DNA of 64,000 nt from Streptomyces sp. NRRL B-24085 (lineage in GTDB: Bacteria > Actinomycetota > Actinomycetes > Streptomycetales > Streptomycetaceae): assembly GCF_001282115.1 (NCBI RefSeq), contig NZ_LJBR01000097.1, positions 1-64,000 on the forward strand, given 5' to 3'. Position 1 is the first letter of the stretch; the number at the start of each line of letters is the position of its first letter. Below, in pieces: positions 4,594 through 13,279 of the stretch. Made by a program: the position numbers and the translations under genes. The notes beneath the pieces were generated by a model. It worked only from the letters and a program-made list of their open reading frames with translations. It ran no database searches and was not told the origin of the DNA.

Positions 4594-5856
4594 TCAGTGC
4601 TCCGGCAGTGGCTGCGGTGGCTTCGGGCCCACATAAGTGCCGCTCGGACGCATGCGCAGCGGACGTTCGCCGTACTCCTCCAGCGCGTGGGCGATCCAGC
4701 CCGCCGTCCGGGCGACGGCGAAGACCGTCTCGCCGGCCGTGGCGGGCATCCCGGAGGAGGCGGTGAACACGGCGAGGGCCAGGTCCACGTTGGCGTGCAG
4801 GGGGGCGTGGCGGGCTGCGGTGGCCACGATGTCGCGGGCCGCGAGGAGGGCGGGCTCGGCCCGGGGGATCTCCTCCAGGAGAGCGAACAGGGCACGCGCG
4901 CGTGGGTCCTCGCCCGGATAGAGCCGGTGACCGAGGCCGGGGATGCGGCGGCCGGCCCGCAGTTCCTCCGCGATCACAGGGGCCGCGTCGCCGAGCTCGA
5001 GCACGTCGAGCAGCAGTTTGTGGGCGAGCCCGCTGGCCGCGCCGTGCAAGGGGCCCTCCAGGACGCCGAGTCCGGCGGACACGGCCGCGTACGCGTGCGC
5101 GCGAGCCGACGCGGCGACGCGGACCGCGAGCGTCGAGGCGGCGAGGTCGTGGTCGACGAGAAGTCCGAGTGCGGTGTCCAGGACCCGCAGGGAGGCCTCA
5201 TCGGGCTTGCGTCCGCTGAGTCGCGACCACAATCGGGGGGCCAGCCGGCCGTCGTCGCGGCGGTGGTCGTGCAGTACGGGTGGCAGGGCGGCGACAAGGG
5301 TGGGGATGAGGGTCCGCGCGGTGCCGAGCACGGCCTCCTCGGACAGGTCGAAACGCAGCGGGTCGGCCGCCGCGGCGGCGATGGCGGCGACCCGCAACCG
5401 GTCGGTGGGCCCGGTGTGTTCGGGCAGCGCGTCCACCGCGCGACGTGCCGTGTCGACCGTGGCCTCAGGTGCGGTGAAGGTGACCCCGGGCTGCATGCGG
5501 CCGGTCCACAGCCACTCGGCGATCTCTTCGTAGGAGTGGCGTGCGGCGAGTTCGGTCGCGTCGACGCCCCTGAAGTAGTAGCGGTCCCGGTCGATGAACG
5601 TGATGCGGGTCCGTACGGAGAGATCGCCGCCGGAGCCCGGACTCCCGCTGCCCTCCCGGCGGTTGCGCCGGGCGAGGGTCTCCACCTCCTTGGCGTCGAA
5701 GGTGCTGCCCCGGCCGCCAGGGACGCGCCGGCTGCTGAGCTGGCCGCGGCTCACATAGGCGTAGACGGTCTCGGGTTTCACCCCGAGCAGTTCGGCGGCT
5801 TCCTTGGTGCTGAGCCGGTGGTCGGCGGGGCCCGGGAGCGGGTCTTGATCGCGCAT
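4594..5856 (-). CDS. Citrate synthase homologue with N-terminal helix-turn-helix DNA-binding domain
   Basis: A 420-residue fusion. Residues about 14-65 form an excisionase/MerR-like helix-turn-helix (STKEAAELLGVKPETVYAYV, then SRGQLSSRRVPGGRGSTF), and the rest is a citrate synthase fold. Catalytic elements are visible: a first His in GPLHGAASG, a second in PGLGHRLYPGEDPRAR, and the Asp in HANVDLAL. The reaction expected is condensation of oxaloacetate with acetyl-CoA or propionyl-CoA. The fusion with a DNA-binding helix is a known actinobacterial architecture but its role is poorly described; it suggests a metabolic enzyme that also binds DNA. It is transcribed divergently from a second citrate synthase gene, and an A+T-rich palindromic region lies between them. 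The start is ATG 5856, 14 residues before the helix-turn-helix. Confidence 0.88.
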   Translation of the reverse strand: MRDQDPLPGPADHRLSTKEAAELLGVKPETVYAYVSRGQLSSRRVPGGRGSTFDAKEVETLARRNRREGSGSPGSGGDLSVRTRITFIDRDRYYFRGVDATELAARHSYEEIAEWLWTGRMQPGVTFTAPEATVDTARRAVDALPEHTGPTDRLRVAAIAAAAADPLRFDLSEEAVLGTARTLIPTLVAALPPVLHDHRRDDGRLAPRLWSRLSGRKPDEASLRVLDTALGLLVDHDLAASTLAVRVAASARAHAYAAVSAGLGVLEGPLHGAASGLAHKLLLDVLELGDAAPVIAEELRAGRRIPGLGHRLYPGEDPRARALFALLEEIPRAEPALLAARDIVATAARHAPLHANVDLALAVFTASSGMPATAGETVFAVARTAGWIAHALEEYGERPLRMRPSGTYVGPKPPQPLPEH

Positions 5857-5895
5857 AAGAGGTCACCGTATCCGCAGCCGGAGGGGTTGATGGGC

Positions 5896-5931
5896 GATAT
5901 TGAGTGCACATTGATTTAATCAATATTGACA
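5896..5931. promoter_or_regulatory. A+T-rich palindromic operator candidate between divergent citrate synthase genes
   Basis: In a very G+C-rich genome this short stretch is strikingly A+T rich and symmetric. It contains ATATTGA (5897-5903), TTGATTTAATCAA (5911-5923, arms TTGAT/ATCAA) and the perfect 10-bp palindrome TCAATATTGA (5920-5929). The last overlaps a consensus -35 hexamer TTGACA (5926-5931) that points toward the citrate synthase gene at 5979; an acceptable -10 (GACAGT, 5950-5955) follows at 18 nt. A protein bound here would block that promoter. The HTH-citrate synthase encoded on the other side is the obvious candidate binder, but this is inference. Confidence 0.5.
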
Positions 5932-5978
5932 GGAAATGAGTCAACCATGGACAGTCGAATCAAGTCCAGGGAGGAATC

Positions 5979-7142
5979 ATGTCGGTCAACAGGTCCGCAA
6001 CCACACTCGTCGAGGTACCGCGGGGACTCGCCGGCGTCCTCGTCACCGACACCGAGGTCGGGGACGTGCGGGGGCGCGAGGGGTTCTATCACTACCGCCA
6101 GTACTCGGCCGTCGAGCTCGCGCAGACCCGTGGCTTCGAGGACGTCTGGCATCTCCTGGTCCACGGTGAACTGCCGGACGCCGGACAGGCCGCGGCGTTC
6201 CGGGCCGCGACCGCGCGGCTGCGGCGGCTCCCGGAGGAGGTCCGCGCCGCTCTGCCGGCCATCGCGGCGGCGAGCCGGAGGTCGGGGCCGCTGGCCGGCA
6301 TGCGCACCGCGTTGTCGCTCCTCGGGTCGGCGAAGGGATTCCGGCCGGTGTACGACATCGACCCCGAGGAGCGGCGCCGGGACACGCTCGTGGCGGCCGC
6401 CGCGGTGCCGACGCTGCTCACCGCGCTCCACCGGCTGGGCAAGGGACTCGAGCCGGTGGAGCCGCGGGCGGATCTCTCGTACGCGTCGAACTACCTCTAC
6501 ATGTTGACGGGTTCGGAGCCGGATCCCCTGCGGGCCCGGGCGGTCGAGCAGTACTTGATCTCAACCATTGATCACGGCTTCAATGCATCAACCTTTACGG
6601 CACGGGTCATCGCGTCGACGGGCGCGGATGTGGTGGCGTGCCTCGTGGGGGCCGTAGGGGCCTTGTCCGGGCCGCTGCACGGGGGTGCGCCGAGTCGGGC
6701 TCTGGACACCCTGGACGCGATCGGCACGCCCGACCGGATAGACCCCTGGATCCGTGAGCGGGTGCTCGCCGGTGAACGGATCATGGGCTTCGGTCACGCG
6801 ATCTACCGCACGGAGGATCCGCGTTCCCGGATGCTCCGGGAGGTCGCCCAGCGGTTCGGCGGGCCCCGGGTGGACTTCGCCGTCGAGGTGGAACGCCAGG
6901 TGGAGGCGATCCTGGCCGAGCTGAAGCCGGGGCGGGAACTCCACACCAACGTCGAGTTCTACGCGGGCGTGGTCATGGAGCTGTGCGGGCTGCCACGGGA
7001 GATGTTCACGCCCACGTTCGCGGCGGCGCGGGTGGTGGGCTGGAGCGCCAACATCCTCGAACAGGCGGCGGACTCGAAGATCATCCGTCCGATGGCGCGG
7101 TATGTGGGGGCGGAGGCGCCGGTGGCGGTGCCGGTGAGGTGA
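5979..7142 (+). CDS. Citrate synthase / 2-methylcitrate synthase family protein
   Basis: A 387-residue citrate synthase-fold enzyme without the DNA-binding extension of its divergent neighbour. The two catalytic histidines are present (SGPLHGGAPSR and GFGHAIYRTEDPRS). At the place of the usual catalytic Asp (NVDF) the sequence reads TNVEFYAG, so residue 326 is Glu. ATG 5979 has GGAGGA just upstream. It should condense oxaloacetate with acetyl-CoA or propionyl-CoA. Codons 192-207, around IDHGFNASTF, use A/T-rich triplets (TCA, ATT, AAT, GCA, TTT) unlike the rest of the gene, and this patch holds several TTGA/TCAA half-sites like those in the intergenic operator candidate. The gene probably answers to the HTH-citrate synthase divergent from it. 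Confidence 0.88.
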   Translation: MSVNRSATTLVEVPRGLAGVLVTDTEVGDVRGREGFYHYRQYSAVELAQTRGFEDVWHLLVHGELPDAGQAAAFRAATARLRRLPEEVRAALPAIAAASRRSGPLAGMRTALSLLGSAKGFRPVYDIDPEERRRDTLVAAAAVPTLLTALHRLGKGLEPVEPRADLSYASNYLYMLTGSEPDPLRARAVEQYLISTIDHGFNASTFTARVIASTGADVVACLVGAVGALSGPLHGGAPSRALDTLDAIGTPDRIDPWIRERVLAGERIMGFGHAIYRTEDPRSRMLREVAQRFGGPRVDFAVEVERQVEAILAELKPGRELHTNVEFYAGVVMELCGLPREMFTPTFAAARVVGWSANILEQAADSKIIRPMARYVGAEAPVAVPVR

Positions 7143-7152
7143 CGAGACCTTG

Positions 7153-7857
7153 TCAGGCGGGGGGCCGAGGCGGCGGGTCGGGCTGTTGCGCGGCCCGAAT
7201 CGCGCTCTCGAAGATCCTGAACAACCGCCCTTCGTCAGTGTCGGGCGGCAGGACCTCCTTCGCGCCATGGGAAGCCGCCCAATACCGATTGAAGGCAGGG
7301 CTCTGCACCAGGGTTCCCGCTCGTGCGACCAACTCGGCTTCGGTGATGCCGCCCCACTTGTAGACCAACAGGTAATGACTGAAGGTCAGGTTGGCGAAGA
7401 GGTTCTGCCGGAGGACCTGTGGGGACGCACCCGGAAAGTCGTTCCAGACCTCGGCCAGCGCGGGATCGTCCATCGCCATCTGAGTGAGCTGGACATGGAG
7501 GGCCCGTAAGTCGGCTTCGGCGCTCCGGTGCAACTCGTTGCGGGAAGAGACGAGTTCCTCGCGCTGCATGGCGAGTTCGTGACGCTGCATCCGCAGCTCT
7601 CGCTGTTGGAGCAGAAGCGTGGCCACGAGCAGGAGCAGTGCCAGACCAGAGAAGACTGCGCTGGCCCCGCCGAAGTATTCCCCGAGTGAGCTGCGCTCCA
7701 GTGCCGTGTGCCTGTCTCCGTTGGCTTCCTCGACACCTCGGACGAGCCAGCCGCTGACCACCACTGAGGCGGCACCGACGGCACCAGTGACAGCGACTGC
7801 TACGGAACCCCACGCGGATGCGACAAGAGCCGAACGCCATATGCGGTGCGCCGCCAT
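7153..7857 (-). CDS. DUF6082 family membrane protein (copy A)
   Basis: A 234-residue protein of the Streptomyces DUF6082 type. Two hydrophobic segments (about residues 10-38 and 62-84) are followed by a charged, Gln/Arg-rich probable coiled coil and then the conserved C-terminal domain with NLFANLTFSHYLLVYKWG and FNRYWAASHG. A second member at 8841-9401 shares the same motifs (YLFANALYTNLLLSYRLGN, VREYWHATRG) with low overall identity. The function is unknown. It closes a four-gene minus-strand block in which two DUF6082 genes flank two related small genes. Its stop lies 10 bp from the end of the convergent citrate synthase gene. Confidence 0.78.
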   Translation of the reverse strand: MAAHRIWRSALVASAWGSVAVAVTGAVGAASVVVSGWLVRGVEEANGDRHTALERSSLGEYFGGASAVFSGLALLLLVATLLLQQRELRMQRHELAMQREELVSSRNELHRSAEADLRALHVQLTQMAMDDPALAEVWNDFPGASPQVLRQNLFANLTFSHYLLVYKWGGITEAELVARAGTLVQSPAFNRYWAASHGAKEVLPPDTDEGRLFRIFESAIRAAQQPDPPPRPPA

Positions 7858-7977
7858 CCGTGCCTCCCCCGAGAGCCTGCGACATCCTTCCCGCGACTCA
7901 GAACGGAGAAACGGCGTCGCCGGGGCCTATGTGGGGCGGATACCCGCACCGGACTTTCCGGTGCGGGCTACTCCCGG

Positions 7978-8265
7978 TCAGATGTCGGGAATGAATGCCT
8001 TGGCGCAGGCGAGTGTCTCGCGGTCCACGACCACGACAATCTCGGAAGTGGCCAGCGTCCGCATCCCCGGGTAGTCCTTCCGGATCTCCGCAGTCCGCTC
8101 TGAGCCGATCACCACGAATCGACCGTCACGGAGTTCGAAGACGTCTGGACAGGTGGCGCCGCAGGTGCTGCCCCTCGACTGAGGGGGGAGACCGATGCGT
8201 CGCTTTATGTGGAGGCGTGAGGCGGACAGCCGGCAGGCGGCTTTCCGGCCCAGATGGATGGTCAT
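7978..8265 (-). CDS. Small conserved protein A (paralogue of the protein at 8383-8622)
   Basis: A 95-residue soluble protein of unknown function. From residue about 22 it matches the neighbouring small protein: RRIGLPPQSRG, then CPDVFELRDGRFVVIG, and a C-terminal EIVVVVDRETLACAKAFIP. ATG 8265 is preceded by AAGGA at good spacing, which supports the 20-residue N-terminal extension that the paralogue lacks. Similar small proteins (CPDIFEL...DFAVIG...) are known to me as recurrent hypothetical proteins in Streptomyces, often next to regulators or DUF genes. It lies 121 bp upstream of DUF6082 copy A on the same strand. Confidence 0.68.
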   Translation of the reverse strand: MTIHLGRKAACRLSASRLHIKRRIGLPPQSRGSTCGATCPDVFELRDGRFVVIGSERTAEIRKDYPGMRTLATSEIVVVVDRETLACAKAFIPDI

Positions 8266-8382
8266 CCTGATCCTTCGGGGTTTGACACGGTGAGGGGGAA
8301 TCCGGTTCGGGGCGTCGGGTGGCCGGTCTGGGACGGACCGTCCGTGAAACGCGGCGTCGGTGACGAAGGGAGCCCCGGCTCC

Positions 8383-8622
8383 TCATGCCTCCGGGATGTC
8401 GCCCTTGGCCCTGATGAGCGTGTCCCGGGTGATGACGACGATTCGCTCGTAGTCCGCTCGCGACGCGTCGGCGGGGAGTTCGCCGTCGAGTTGTTCCGTG
8501 ACGTCCTTGCCGATCACGGCGAAGCTTCCGTCGGCCAATTCGAAGATGTCAGGGCAGTTGCCCCCGCCCTGGCTCCCCCGAGCGCTGGGGGGTACACCGA
8601 TCCGACGGATGATCTGACTCAC
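8383..8622 (-). CDS. Small conserved protein B (CPDIFEL...FAVIG type)
   Basis: A 79-residue soluble protein, paralogous to the one at 7978-8265. Motifs are RRIGVPPSARG, CPDIFELADGSFAVIG, and RIVVITRDTLIRAKGDIPEA. I start it at GTG 8622 because GAGGAA lies about 8 nt before it and because the family motif begins immediately; a longer reading to 8706 adds unrelated sequence. It follows DUF6082 copy B (8841-9401) on the same strand after 218 bp, and precedes small protein A. No signal peptide or membrane segment. Function unknown. Confidence 0.7.
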   Translation of the reverse strand: MSQIIRRIGVPPSARGSQGGGNCPDIFELADGSFAVIGKDVTEQLDGELPADASRADYERIVVITRDTLIRAKGDIPEA

Positions 8623-8840
8623 TGTTGATTCCTCTGGTCTCACGTCTGAAGAGCTTGCGCACAACGACTGCGGGGTGGAGGCGGCCCTGTGGGGTGCGTT
8701 CGCCAACCGGCGGCGTGAGCGACGACTTGTGGAGTCGCTCTACGCGATCGAGCGTGAGTCAACCCCAGCGACGTCTGGGACAACTGGGGACTTCATCCGT
8801 TCGTTATGGCCCGAGGGTGTGATTCCCGAGAGTCGATCCC

Positions 8841-9401
8841 TCAGCCGCCTGGTGAGTCTCCAACAACCCACCATTCGTCCCCGTCGGCTTCATCCAGTTG
8901 CCGAAGCAACTCGTCAACCATCCGGCCGAGCTCGGCCTCGTCCGACCCCTCGGGCAGGGTTGCCCGCTGCCCACGAGTAGCGTGCCAGTACTCCCTGACG
9001 ACGGGATTCTGTATGAGACCGCGGATGAACCCGAAGAATTCGTCACGGCTGATGTTGCCCAGGCGGTAGGAGAGCAGCAGGTTCGTGTACAGCGCGTTGG
9101 CGAAGAGGTATTGGCGGCGTTTCTGCGGTGCCGCCGGCACTTCGAAGATGTCCAGGACCTCGGCCAGCTCAGGGCTGTCGATGGCCTTGCTCAGCAGTTC
9201 CCAGTGCAGGCGCTGTTGGCTGGCCAGGTTGGCGTGGCGCTGACCATCCGCGACCCGCTCTTCCAGGTGGTCGAGGCGCAGGTGCAGTGTGTGGAGCGCG
9301 CGCTGTTGTGCGGTCAGAGCGACGAGCGCTCCTGTCACCAGGCCGAGACCGGCTGCCAGAGGAGCGACGAACCCTCGTACTCCACGCTTCTGTGTGGCCA
9401 T
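8841..9401 (-). CDS. DUF6082 family membrane protein (copy B)
   Basis: A 186-residue protein. One hydrophobic segment near the N-terminus (about residues 10-30, PLAAGLGLVTGALVALTA) is followed by a probable coiled coil (LHTLHLRLDHLEERV) and the DUF6082 domain with LLSKAIDSPELAEVLDIFEV and YLFANALYTNLLLSYRLGN. It is shorter at the N-terminus than copy A. It is the first gene of the four-gene minus-strand block. Function unknown; the shared pattern is a membrane anchor, a coil and a cytosolic helical domain. Confidence 0.75.
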   Translation of the reverse strand: MATQKRGVRGFVAPLAAGLGLVTGALVALTAQQRALHTLHLRLDHLEERVADGQRHANLASQQRLHWELLSKAIDSPELAEVLDIFEVPAAPQKRRQYLFANALYTNLLLSYRLGNISRDEFFGFIRGLIQNPVVREYWHATRGQRATLPEGSDEAELGRMVDELLRQLDEADGDEWWVVGDSPGG

Positions 9402-9722
9402 GTCATCCCCGATCCAAACGGCCGTCCGCCGGTCGTCGGGGTGCGGGTCGACTGATGGGGACCGGCGAGCGGTGGGCGGCGCTTGCCGTCTCCCAGGGTG
9501 CCGAGCGGCTCTGATCGGCGGGGGAGGCGGAGAGGAGGCGCACGGAGGGAAGTGAGGGTCGCACGAACCGGCGCCTTCCCCAACGTCTGCCCCGCAAGTG
9601 CTGCTAACAATCGTTCACTTCGAGGGGATTGTTCCGGCTCGTATCCTGGTCCGGCATTCCCCCCACGGACGTGCGCCGGGACCGCGATCCGGTGCACGCA
9701 GCAGCGCGAAAGAGGTCGTACG
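9402..9722. other. Intergenic region between the DUF6082 block and the CobW gene
   Basis: About 320 bp between divergent genes. It must hold the promoter of the DUF6082 block and that of the CobW-like gene. The part near 9600-9650 is relatively A+T rich (AACAATCGTT at 9607-9616) and is the likeliest control region. I looked for a Zur-type palindrome because the downstream protein is a metal chaperone and did not find a convincing one. No small gene seen. Confidence 0.4.
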
Positions 9723-10825
9723 TTGAGTCAGCCGAGCGGGAGCCCCCGGCAGATCCCGGTCGTCGTGCTCGCCGGATTCCTGGGTTCCGGCAAGACCACG
9801 CTCCTCAATCATCTCCTCCACCGCAGCGGCGGCAGCCGGATCGGAGCCGTCGTCAACGACTTCGGTGCCATCGAGATCGACGCCATGGCCGTCGCCGGCG
9901 CGCTCGGCGACTCCACCGTCTCCCTCGGCAACGGCTGCCTGTGCTGCGCCGTCGACGTCAGCGAACTCGACGGATACCTCGCCAGGCTCGCCCACCCCGA
10001 CACCGGCATCGACGTCATCGTCATCGAGGCCAGCGGGCTCGCCGAGCCGCAGGAACTCGTCCGCATGGTGCTCGCCAGCGAGGAGCCCGACATCGTCTAC
10101 GGCGGTCTCGTCGAGGTCGTCGACGCCGCCGAGTTCGACGACACCCGCGCCAGGCACCCCGAGCTCGACCGCCACCTCGGTCTCGCCGACCTCGTCGTGG
10201 TCAACAAGCTCGACCGGACGGCTCCCGAGAACGCCGAGCGCGTTCTCGCGGTCGTCCGGTCCCTCGTCGACCGCGCCGCCGTCGTCCCGGCCACCTACGG
10301 CCGTGTCGACCCCGAGTTCCTCTTCGACTGCCGGCCCAGCGAGGAACGCGTCGGACAGCTCTCCTTCGACGACCTGCACGACCACGAGGACCGCGACCAC
10401 GACGGTCACGCCCACGCGGGGCACCTGCACTCCGCCTACGACAGCCTGTCCTTCACCGCGGAAACGCCCCTCGACCCGCGTCGGCTCATGGGCTTCCTCG
10501 ACAGCCGGCCCGAAGGGCTCTACCGGATCAAGGGGTACGTCGACTTCGGGCCGTACGACGTCCGCAACCGCTACGCCGTACACGCCGTAGGGCGGTTTCT
10601 GCGGTTCTACCCGGAACCCTGGCCGCCCGGCGACACCCGTCTCACCCAGCTCGTCCTCATCGGCTCCGGCATCGACACGTCCGCCCTCGGCAAGGAGCTG
10701 GAGGCGTGCAAGGGGACACAGCAGGACGCCCCGCACACCGACGAGGCCGGCATGTGGGGCGTTCTGCGTTACGTGCAGGGCACCGAGGAGGAACCCGGGG
10801 AAGAGGGGGCAGCGGGGGAACCGGC

Positions 10826-10829
<4 letters not shown>
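9723..10829 (+). CDS. CobW/COG0523-family GTP-dependent metal chaperone
   Basis: A 368-residue GTPase of the CobW/YjiA/ZNG group, which uses GTP hydrolysis to load a metal (often zinc or cobalt) on a client enzyme. The P-loop GFLGSGKTT is at residues 16-24, the metal-binding CLCC motif near residue 74, and the NKLD guanine motif near 160. A His/Asp-rich stretch (HDHEDRDHDGHAHAGHLH, about residue 218-235) fits a metal-sensing or metal-loading loop. The C-terminal CobW domain follows. I start at TTG 9723: AAGAGG lies 7 nt upstream and the family motif begins soon after. Its stop TAG and that of the convergent parC gene share the palindrome CTAG. Confidence 0.9.

Positions 10830-13279
<2,450 letters not shown>

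Follow-up and report, generated by a model that had tools for sequence, protein, structure and literature searches.

The window, a 64,000-nucleotide stretch of Streptomyces sp. NRRL B-24085, holds at 7153-9401 four short genes that make up two pairs, each joining a gene for a DUF6082 protein to one for a small protein with a CPD(I/V)FEL block. The association of DUF6082 with the small protein is not due to chance. The two genes form a matched cassette that is exchanged whole between strains, and the pair is nearly all-or-none in the space between cobW and a citrate synthase gene. Its joint inheritance, and its exchange between strains as a matched unit, suggest that the two proteins cooperate in a signalling or defence-like switch not described before. 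The reading favoured here, with a probability of about 0.5, is that the window carries two partner-system cassettes in which the small protein would bind and regulate its cognate DUF6082, and that this small protein belongs, as the invariant member, to a broader modular set.

A paired cassette at a fixed chromosomal site

Across 121 Streptomyces genomes, 87 DUF6082 matches (52 genomes) and 75 small-protein matches (45 genomes) were found, and 50 of the 75 lie within 2.5 kb of a DUF6082 gene, where our own arithmetic puts the chance expectation at about 0.03 of the 75. These 50 comprise 39 tandem arrangements with the small gene downstream, 6 tandem arrangements with it upstream and 5 convergent pairs. 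When sorted by score, 42 of the 44 small matches of at least 89 bits are paired, as are 8 of the 31 weaker ones; seen from the other side, 51 of the 87 DUF6082 matches have a small gene nearby. The co-occurrence proposed in a preliminary description of this DNA is thus borne out: adjacency is far above chance and recurs at several unrelated chromosomal sites, whereas rare adjacency in other genomes had been set in advance as the result that would count against it. In an even sample of 296 genomes from the phylum, DUF6082 occurs in 7 and the A-type small protein in 5 of these same 7, all Streptomyces; the small-protein profile used for this count leans to the A type, and a Kitasatospora plasmid carries a DUF6879-linked relative.

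The genes of the window and their neighbours are as follows.

8841..9401, minus strand: DUF6082-A, 186 residues, with one candidate membrane span (about residues 11-29), a coiled coil and a C-terminal helical domain
8623..8840, minus strand: gap ahead of small-A, 218 nucleotides, a leader with a GGAA-type ribosome site
8383..8622, minus strand: small-A, 79 residues, GTG start, with invariant-type CPD(I/V)FEL and ADYERIVV blocks
7978..8265, minus strand: small-B, 95 residues, the diverged partner within cassette B
7153..7857, minus strand: DUF6082-B, 234 residues, with two candidate membrane spans (from residues 21 and 65), a coiled coil and a helical domain, of a lineage separate from A
5979..7142, plus strand: flanking gene citA2, citrate synthase-like
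9714..10829 (start approximate), plus strand: flanking gene cobW, CobW-type GTPase
10826..13279, minus strand: flanking gene parC, gyrase/topoisomerase IV A-type

The three flanking genes are taken to be what their names say from recognition of their sequences, without a family search. All four open reading frames of the two pairs are present as described earlier, on the minus strand and in the mirrored order DUF6082, small, small, DUF6082, with intergenic gaps of 218, 117 and 120 nucleotides by their coordinates; for small-A, an alternative upstream TTG start is possible at 8706. Both large proteins belong to DUF6082, scoring 179.9 bits (A) and 137 bits (B) against the PF19560 profile, whose curated cut-off is 26.7, and neither small protein has a Pfam or NCBIfam match above the curated cut-offs. 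The likeness of A to B that had been noted for both gene types goes far past chance, with 36% identity over 159 residues (E 2e-22) for the DUF6082 proteins and 47% over 76 residues (E 4e-24) for the small ones. Both genes of cassette A are under purifying selection, since the median ratio of nonsynonymous to synonymous divergence (dN/dS) is 0.23 for DUF6082-A (154 pairs) and 0.10 for small-A (151 pairs).

The position of the pair is also constrained. In a set of 80 loci, which was gathered through the small protein, at least one of four flanking genes is present in all 80 and both sides in 61. A search that started from the flanks in the 121 genomes located citA2 in 75 (E 1e-150) and cobW in 106 (E 1e-120); the two share a contig and strand in 66 genomes and lie at most 12 kb apart in 64, and these 64 sites were scored. 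Neither gene of the pair is present at 42 sites, both are present at 21, and one site keeps a DUF6082 remnant of 24 bits; a small gene alone and an intact unpaired DUF6082 each occur at none of the 64 (Fisher test for joint presence, 5e-16). The cobW-citA2 gap measures 15-406 nucleotides in the 42 empty sites and 1.4-2.7 kb in the 21 occupied ones, so that the accessory insertion between core genes proposed earlier stands. Outside this sample, L008 is an exception of a kind, with small-A but no DUF6082-A in the stretch retrieved, beside pair B; at L008 1-4900, the side with DUF6082-A, cobW and parC is replaced by other genes, and small-A and pair B are kept.

Variants of the same site differ in how much of the two pairs they hold. 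L108 has the full four-gene version; L018 has DUF6082-A, two small genes and a DUF6082-B reading frame of just 137 residues; L109 has DUF6082-A, small-A and DUF6082-B; and L110 has DUF6082-A, small-A and a degenerate second small gene. A second small gene without a second DUF6082 occurs at ten loci (L015, L016, L020, L022, L024, L027, L032, L065, L068 and L110), and at two of them, L068 5404-5643 and L110 4042-4281, it is degenerate and probably a frameshifted relic. Insertions separate DUF6082-A from small-A at L059 2072-4998 (about 2.9 kb) and L111 5131-6226 (about 1.1 kb), and at L089 533-1869 a small gene lies beside cobW/parC-like fragments, perhaps a broken second copy of the site. The pair also has a second fixed site, flanked by an HxlR gene and by 2-oxoacid:ferredoxin oxidoreductase genes. 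Genes of central carbon metabolism adjoin the two fixed sites, citrate synthase in one case and 2-oxoacid:ferredoxin oxidoreductase in the other. The source genome itself has three DUF6082 and three small genes in three pairs, the third at the second fixed site on another contig (L007, contig C10, 8804-9865) and with relatives in L170, L172, L173, L177 and L178.

Exchange of the cassette as a matched pair

Of 100 loci examined, 61 carry DUF6082-A, small-A and four core genes (cobW, citA2, parC and citA1) at the required coverage, and 39 were dropped. Over the 61 loci, the correlation of protein distances between DUF6082-A and small-A is 0.80, while between the pair members and the four core genes it is 0.03-0.27. 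Controlling for the four core genes leaves a partial correlation of 0.79 for the pair (permutation p 0.001). Core genes among themselves reach up to 0.69, except that citA2 has a low distance correlation with all the others and correlates at 0.38-0.51 with the other core genes by rank. By rank, the two pair members correlate at 0.68 with each other and at 0.05-0.19 with core genes. DUF6082-A divides into four classes, with 28, 27, 6 and 1 loci when the window is counted, and within classes the rank correlation of the pair is 0.84 in class 2 and 0.58 in class 3; the value of 0.63 in class 1, with six loci, does not exceed those for core genes.

Individual loci give examples. L050 and L019 share 94.1% of their core DNA, 97.8% of ParC and 97.0% of CitA2, yet their DUF6082-A proteins are 51% and their small-A proteins 79% identical; L121 and L064 share 91.5% of their core DNA, yet the two members of the pair are 98.5% and 100% identical. 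On a quick core-gene tree, the DUF6082 class changes 18 times (minimum 3, shuffled mean 25.5), which argues that some vertical signal is left. On the small-protein tree it changes 4 times, and the fourth change comes from L018, where the best-scoring small protein is not the neighbour of DUF6082-A and the actual neighbour belongs to the matching class. The nearest neighbour of the adjacent small protein predicts the DUF6082 class at 58 of 59 dereplicated loci, the lone miss being a single-member class, compared with 35-42 of 59 for the core genes. Over 1020 pairs, synonymous divergence has a median of 0.83 in DUF6082-A, 0.94 in small-A and 0.31-0.58 in the core genes.

Orientation varies. At 8 of the 80 loci the small gene is turned to face DUF6082; the other 72 include L008, where the DUF6082 measured is B, and among these tandem loci the median gap is 212.5 nucleotides, with 62 of 72 below 300. 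Turning occurred more than once at the site, in class-1 L115 and class-2 L058, and further convergent pairs are found in other lineages (L116, L117 and L118). Since pairing persists in the convergent orientation, joint transcription would not be required. By eye, about 60 nucleotides before the start of the small gene at turned loci resemble the leader of unturned ones, and from this retained leader the small gene probably has its own promoter.

Structure, origin and wider relatives

The predicted model of DUF6082-A is all-helical, at a good confidence of pLDDT 84.3, with a helix at residues 15-75 that takes in the candidate membrane span and coiled coil, followed by a bundle up to residue 175. 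That of small-A has strands at 4-8, 26-29, 34-37 and 61-64 and a helix at 66-75, at a low confidence of pLDDT 65.5. Membrane spans were called by a 19-residue hydropathy test at the 60 of 62 loci where it could be applied, and they are predicted in 24 of 27 class-2, 15 of 27 class-3, 0 of 5 class-1 and 0 of 1 class-4 proteins, as well as in 0 of 11 DUF6082 proteins of the oxidoreductase-site type. The earlier description of DUF6082 as a membrane anchor plus coiled coil is therefore partly right: the window proteins have candidate spans, two in B and one in A, and those of class 1 and the oxidoreductase-site type have none. Because most of these span-less proteins are still paired with a small gene, the anchor is dispensable for pairing, and the conserved part is the helical domain.

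Comparisons with known structures and sequences brought no identification. Foldseek against the PDB gave nothing below E 1 (best 1.2 for DUF6082-A and 2.0 for small-A), no viral structure model matched at E below 0.3, and the best VIA-align Z of 6.1 falls inside the range of unrelated helical bundles. A PDB sequence search gave no convincing E value for the small protein, DUF6082, DUF6879 or one DUF397 member, and PHROGs returned just weak matches to the N-terminus of DUF6082-B (best E 1.7e-5, function unknown). PADLOC-DB 2.0.0 has no match to any of the four window proteins. No paper naming DUF6082 or DUF6879 was found in a literature search whose reach left out paywalled papers and preprints. 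The two large window proteins are thus members by score of a family without a stated function, whose pairing with a small protein appears in no paper found by a DUF6082 search. Broader literature searches, for cassettes of this sort and for DUF4760, brought up nothing of use among the papers listed. A published expression value for SCO5834 (PMC3610822) was set aside because that locus tag is unconfirmed as a DUF6082 gene.

The earlier proposal that one pair arose from the other by duplication and inversion fares less well. No segment is inverted, because the four genes all read in one direction. On the DUF6082 tree, the clade of B proteins (window, L008, L108 and L109) falls outside a 100/99-supported group of A and oxidoreductase-site proteins, so that DUF6082-A joins the DUF6082 of the oxidoreductase/HxlR site before it joins DUF6082-B. 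Forcing A and B of the window site together costs 24.1 log-likelihood units (p-AU, from the approximately unbiased test, 0.033, an optimistic value because the tested group was chosen after an earlier tree had been seen). These trees and this test speak against a recent A-to-B duplication, and cassette B probably does not derive from A by recent copying. The small-B branch is too long for a placement; both small-protein trees put it within or next to the A group. From the DUF6082 tree and the frequent extra small genes at the site, the window looks like two cassettes gathered in one place, the second ordered small then DUF6082.

Small genes that lack a DUF6082 partner point to a wider set. For 20 of the 25 unpaired small matches, a 6-kb stretch was inspected: a DUF6879 gene comes next on the same strand in 16 of 20, mostly a few to about 120 nucleotides away, and an NB-ARC/TPR protein is encoded within the stretch in 17 of 20. 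On the Kitasatospora plasmid, the small gene overlaps a 1014-residue DUF6879-NB-ARC-TPR fusion. Two loci bring DUF6082 into this arrangement as overlapping operons. In L112, the small gene (4673-4966), DUF6879 (4959-5666) and DUF6082 (5656-6309) overlap by 8 and 11 nucleotides; in L113, the small gene ends at 4793 and DUF6879 (4786-5466) and DUF6082 (5463-6143) follow with overlaps of 8 and 4. The identification of DUF6879 comes from Pfam for L112 (95.7 bits) and from tblastn for L113. These operons indicate that DUF6082 occupies the place of the STAND ATPase there, the small gene being constant, and they link DUF6082 to STAND-type loci. PADLOC-DB has no match to the small protein, DUF6879 or DUF6082 of L112, and the sole matches for the NB-ARC/TPR relatives are a TPR model and a weak one of Cas3 type. 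A search of the source genome gave no DUF6879, but it had no positive control and does not establish absence. At L112 4962-5630, DUF6879 has a weak PAS_4 match (20.1 bits, cut-off 23.1), a hint of a sensor domain.

A putative partner switch and competing explanations

On the favoured reading, each cassette encodes one predicted all-helical DUF6082 protein and one small beta/alpha protein. The small protein would bind the helical domain of its cognate DUF6082 in the cytoplasm and set its activity, most likely restraining it, in the manner of an antitoxin or inhibitor, until a signal releases it. Freed DUF6082, usually located in the membrane, might then act on the cell or relay the signal, and the small protein would serve as the invariant regulator in a modular switch that has either DUF6082 or a STAND ATPase for output. 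Restraint is preferred over activation because a second small gene is retained without a second DUF6082 at ten loci, and because no intact DUF6082 stands unpaired at the cobW-citA2 site; the alternative is a small protein that activates DUF6082 or acts purely as a regulator. If this lock-and-output arrangement is real, filamentous actinobacteria would have a regulated effector module that can use a membrane helical protein and a STAND ATPase interchangeably. Two families of unknown function become a defined, testable system, with natural matched and mismatched pairs and a clean empty site.

Several observations weigh against the partner reading. Nearby small genes are missing from 36 of the 87 DUF6082 matches, mostly of other subfamilies and in other places, and the DUF6082 family as such therefore does not need the small gene. 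L181 holds a DUF6082 of the oxidoreductase-site type without a small gene, and L109 has two DUF6082 genes and one small gene, both awkward for a strict antitoxin. The window genes, 117-218 nucleotides apart, are not obviously one operon. Finally, recombination in conserved flanks would shift any two enclosed neighbours as a block and alone could yield matched exchange, as expected if two unrelated accessory genes hitchhike between core genes with no joint function. Hitchhiking is nonetheless very unlikely, since the same families occur together at unrelated sites (parC-cobW-citA, HxlR-oxidoreductase and others) in both orientations, overlap in the operons of L112 and L113, and at the cobW-citA2 site leave DUF6082 alone just once, as a remnant.

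A more specific version of the partner reading, held only tentatively and on balance doubted, casts the set as a modular Streptomyces system of conflict or self-recognition. The small protein would be the lock, DUF6879 an optional sensor, and a STAND ATPase or the helical domain of DUF6082, mostly tethered to the membrane, the interchangeable output, with the two-gene form as a polymorphic allelic cassette. At fixed core-gene sites the two cognate genes of this minimal cassette would be exchanged together, and mismatched lock and output would therefore be harmful. The small relatives do adjoin or overlap DUF6879 and NB-ARC/TPR genes, fused in one case, as in actinobacterial STAND signalling or conflict proteins, whereas no STAND gene lies between the flanking genes of the window, and in L112 and L113 DUF6082 holds that place. 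A classical type II toxin-antitoxin pair, with DUF6082 as toxin and the small protein as antitoxin, would likewise account for two small adjacent genes kept together near all-or-none at the site, for matched exchange and for extra small genes kept alone, and mobile relatives on plasmids and a virus-type contig fit it too. It seems unlikely, however: Foldseek and VIA-align found no known toxin fold or catalytic signature, PADLOC has no match for DUF6082, the small protein or DUF6879, the genes at the site are loosely spaced or convergent rather than overlapping, and DUF6082 without a small gene is common in other subfamilies.

Equally hard to favour is a developmental or metabolic role, in which the small protein would be a BldB/DUF397-like regulator tethered by DUF6082 and the pair would tune growth, central carbon flow or differentiation rather than conflict. 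The predicted beta-beta-beta-beta-alpha order of small-A, with a conserved Cys at strand 2 (pLDDT 65.5), resembles DUF397 as PMC7159879 describes it, with four strands, a terminal helix and CxE in strand 2. BldB-family proteins, according to PMC10294661, hetero-oligomerise and adjoin partner genes. The likeness to DUF397/BldB proteins with WhiJ-type XRE partners extends to a small actinobacterial protein with many paralogues beside a partner gene, and both fixed sites lie beside central carbon genes. Homology itself is not supported: an hhalign probability of 22% with 7 sequences fell to 1.1% against 51 DUF397 domain rows, a score within the shuffled-control range and beaten by at least 10 of 150 column-shuffled controls. 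Nor do the small proteins have a Pfam match to DUF397 (PF04149), and a PDB search with one DUF397 member gave no hit. The partner here is DUF6082, or DUF6879 with STAND, and the interval bounded by the window cassette's flanking genes contains no XRE gene. Absence from 42 of 64 sites and frequent class exchange are also unlike a core developmental regulator.

Some further relatives stand apart from the cassettes described. L140 3960-4220, on an IMG/VR contig of virus type or from an integrative element, encodes a diverged small protein with no DUF6082 seen nearby, and L231 3001-3267, on the Streptomyces plasmid NZ_CP109590.1, holds an unannotated small relative, with a tyrosine recombinase gene about 2 kb away. 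DUF6082 also occurs in a form of about 150-160 residues near a DUF6624 gene, with no small gene seen, in L190, L191, L193 and L194 (and L185 and L186), the DUF6624 assignment having been checked in L185 only. In L190-L192, a protein of the 680-residue type near this form resembles a lantibiotic dehydratase.

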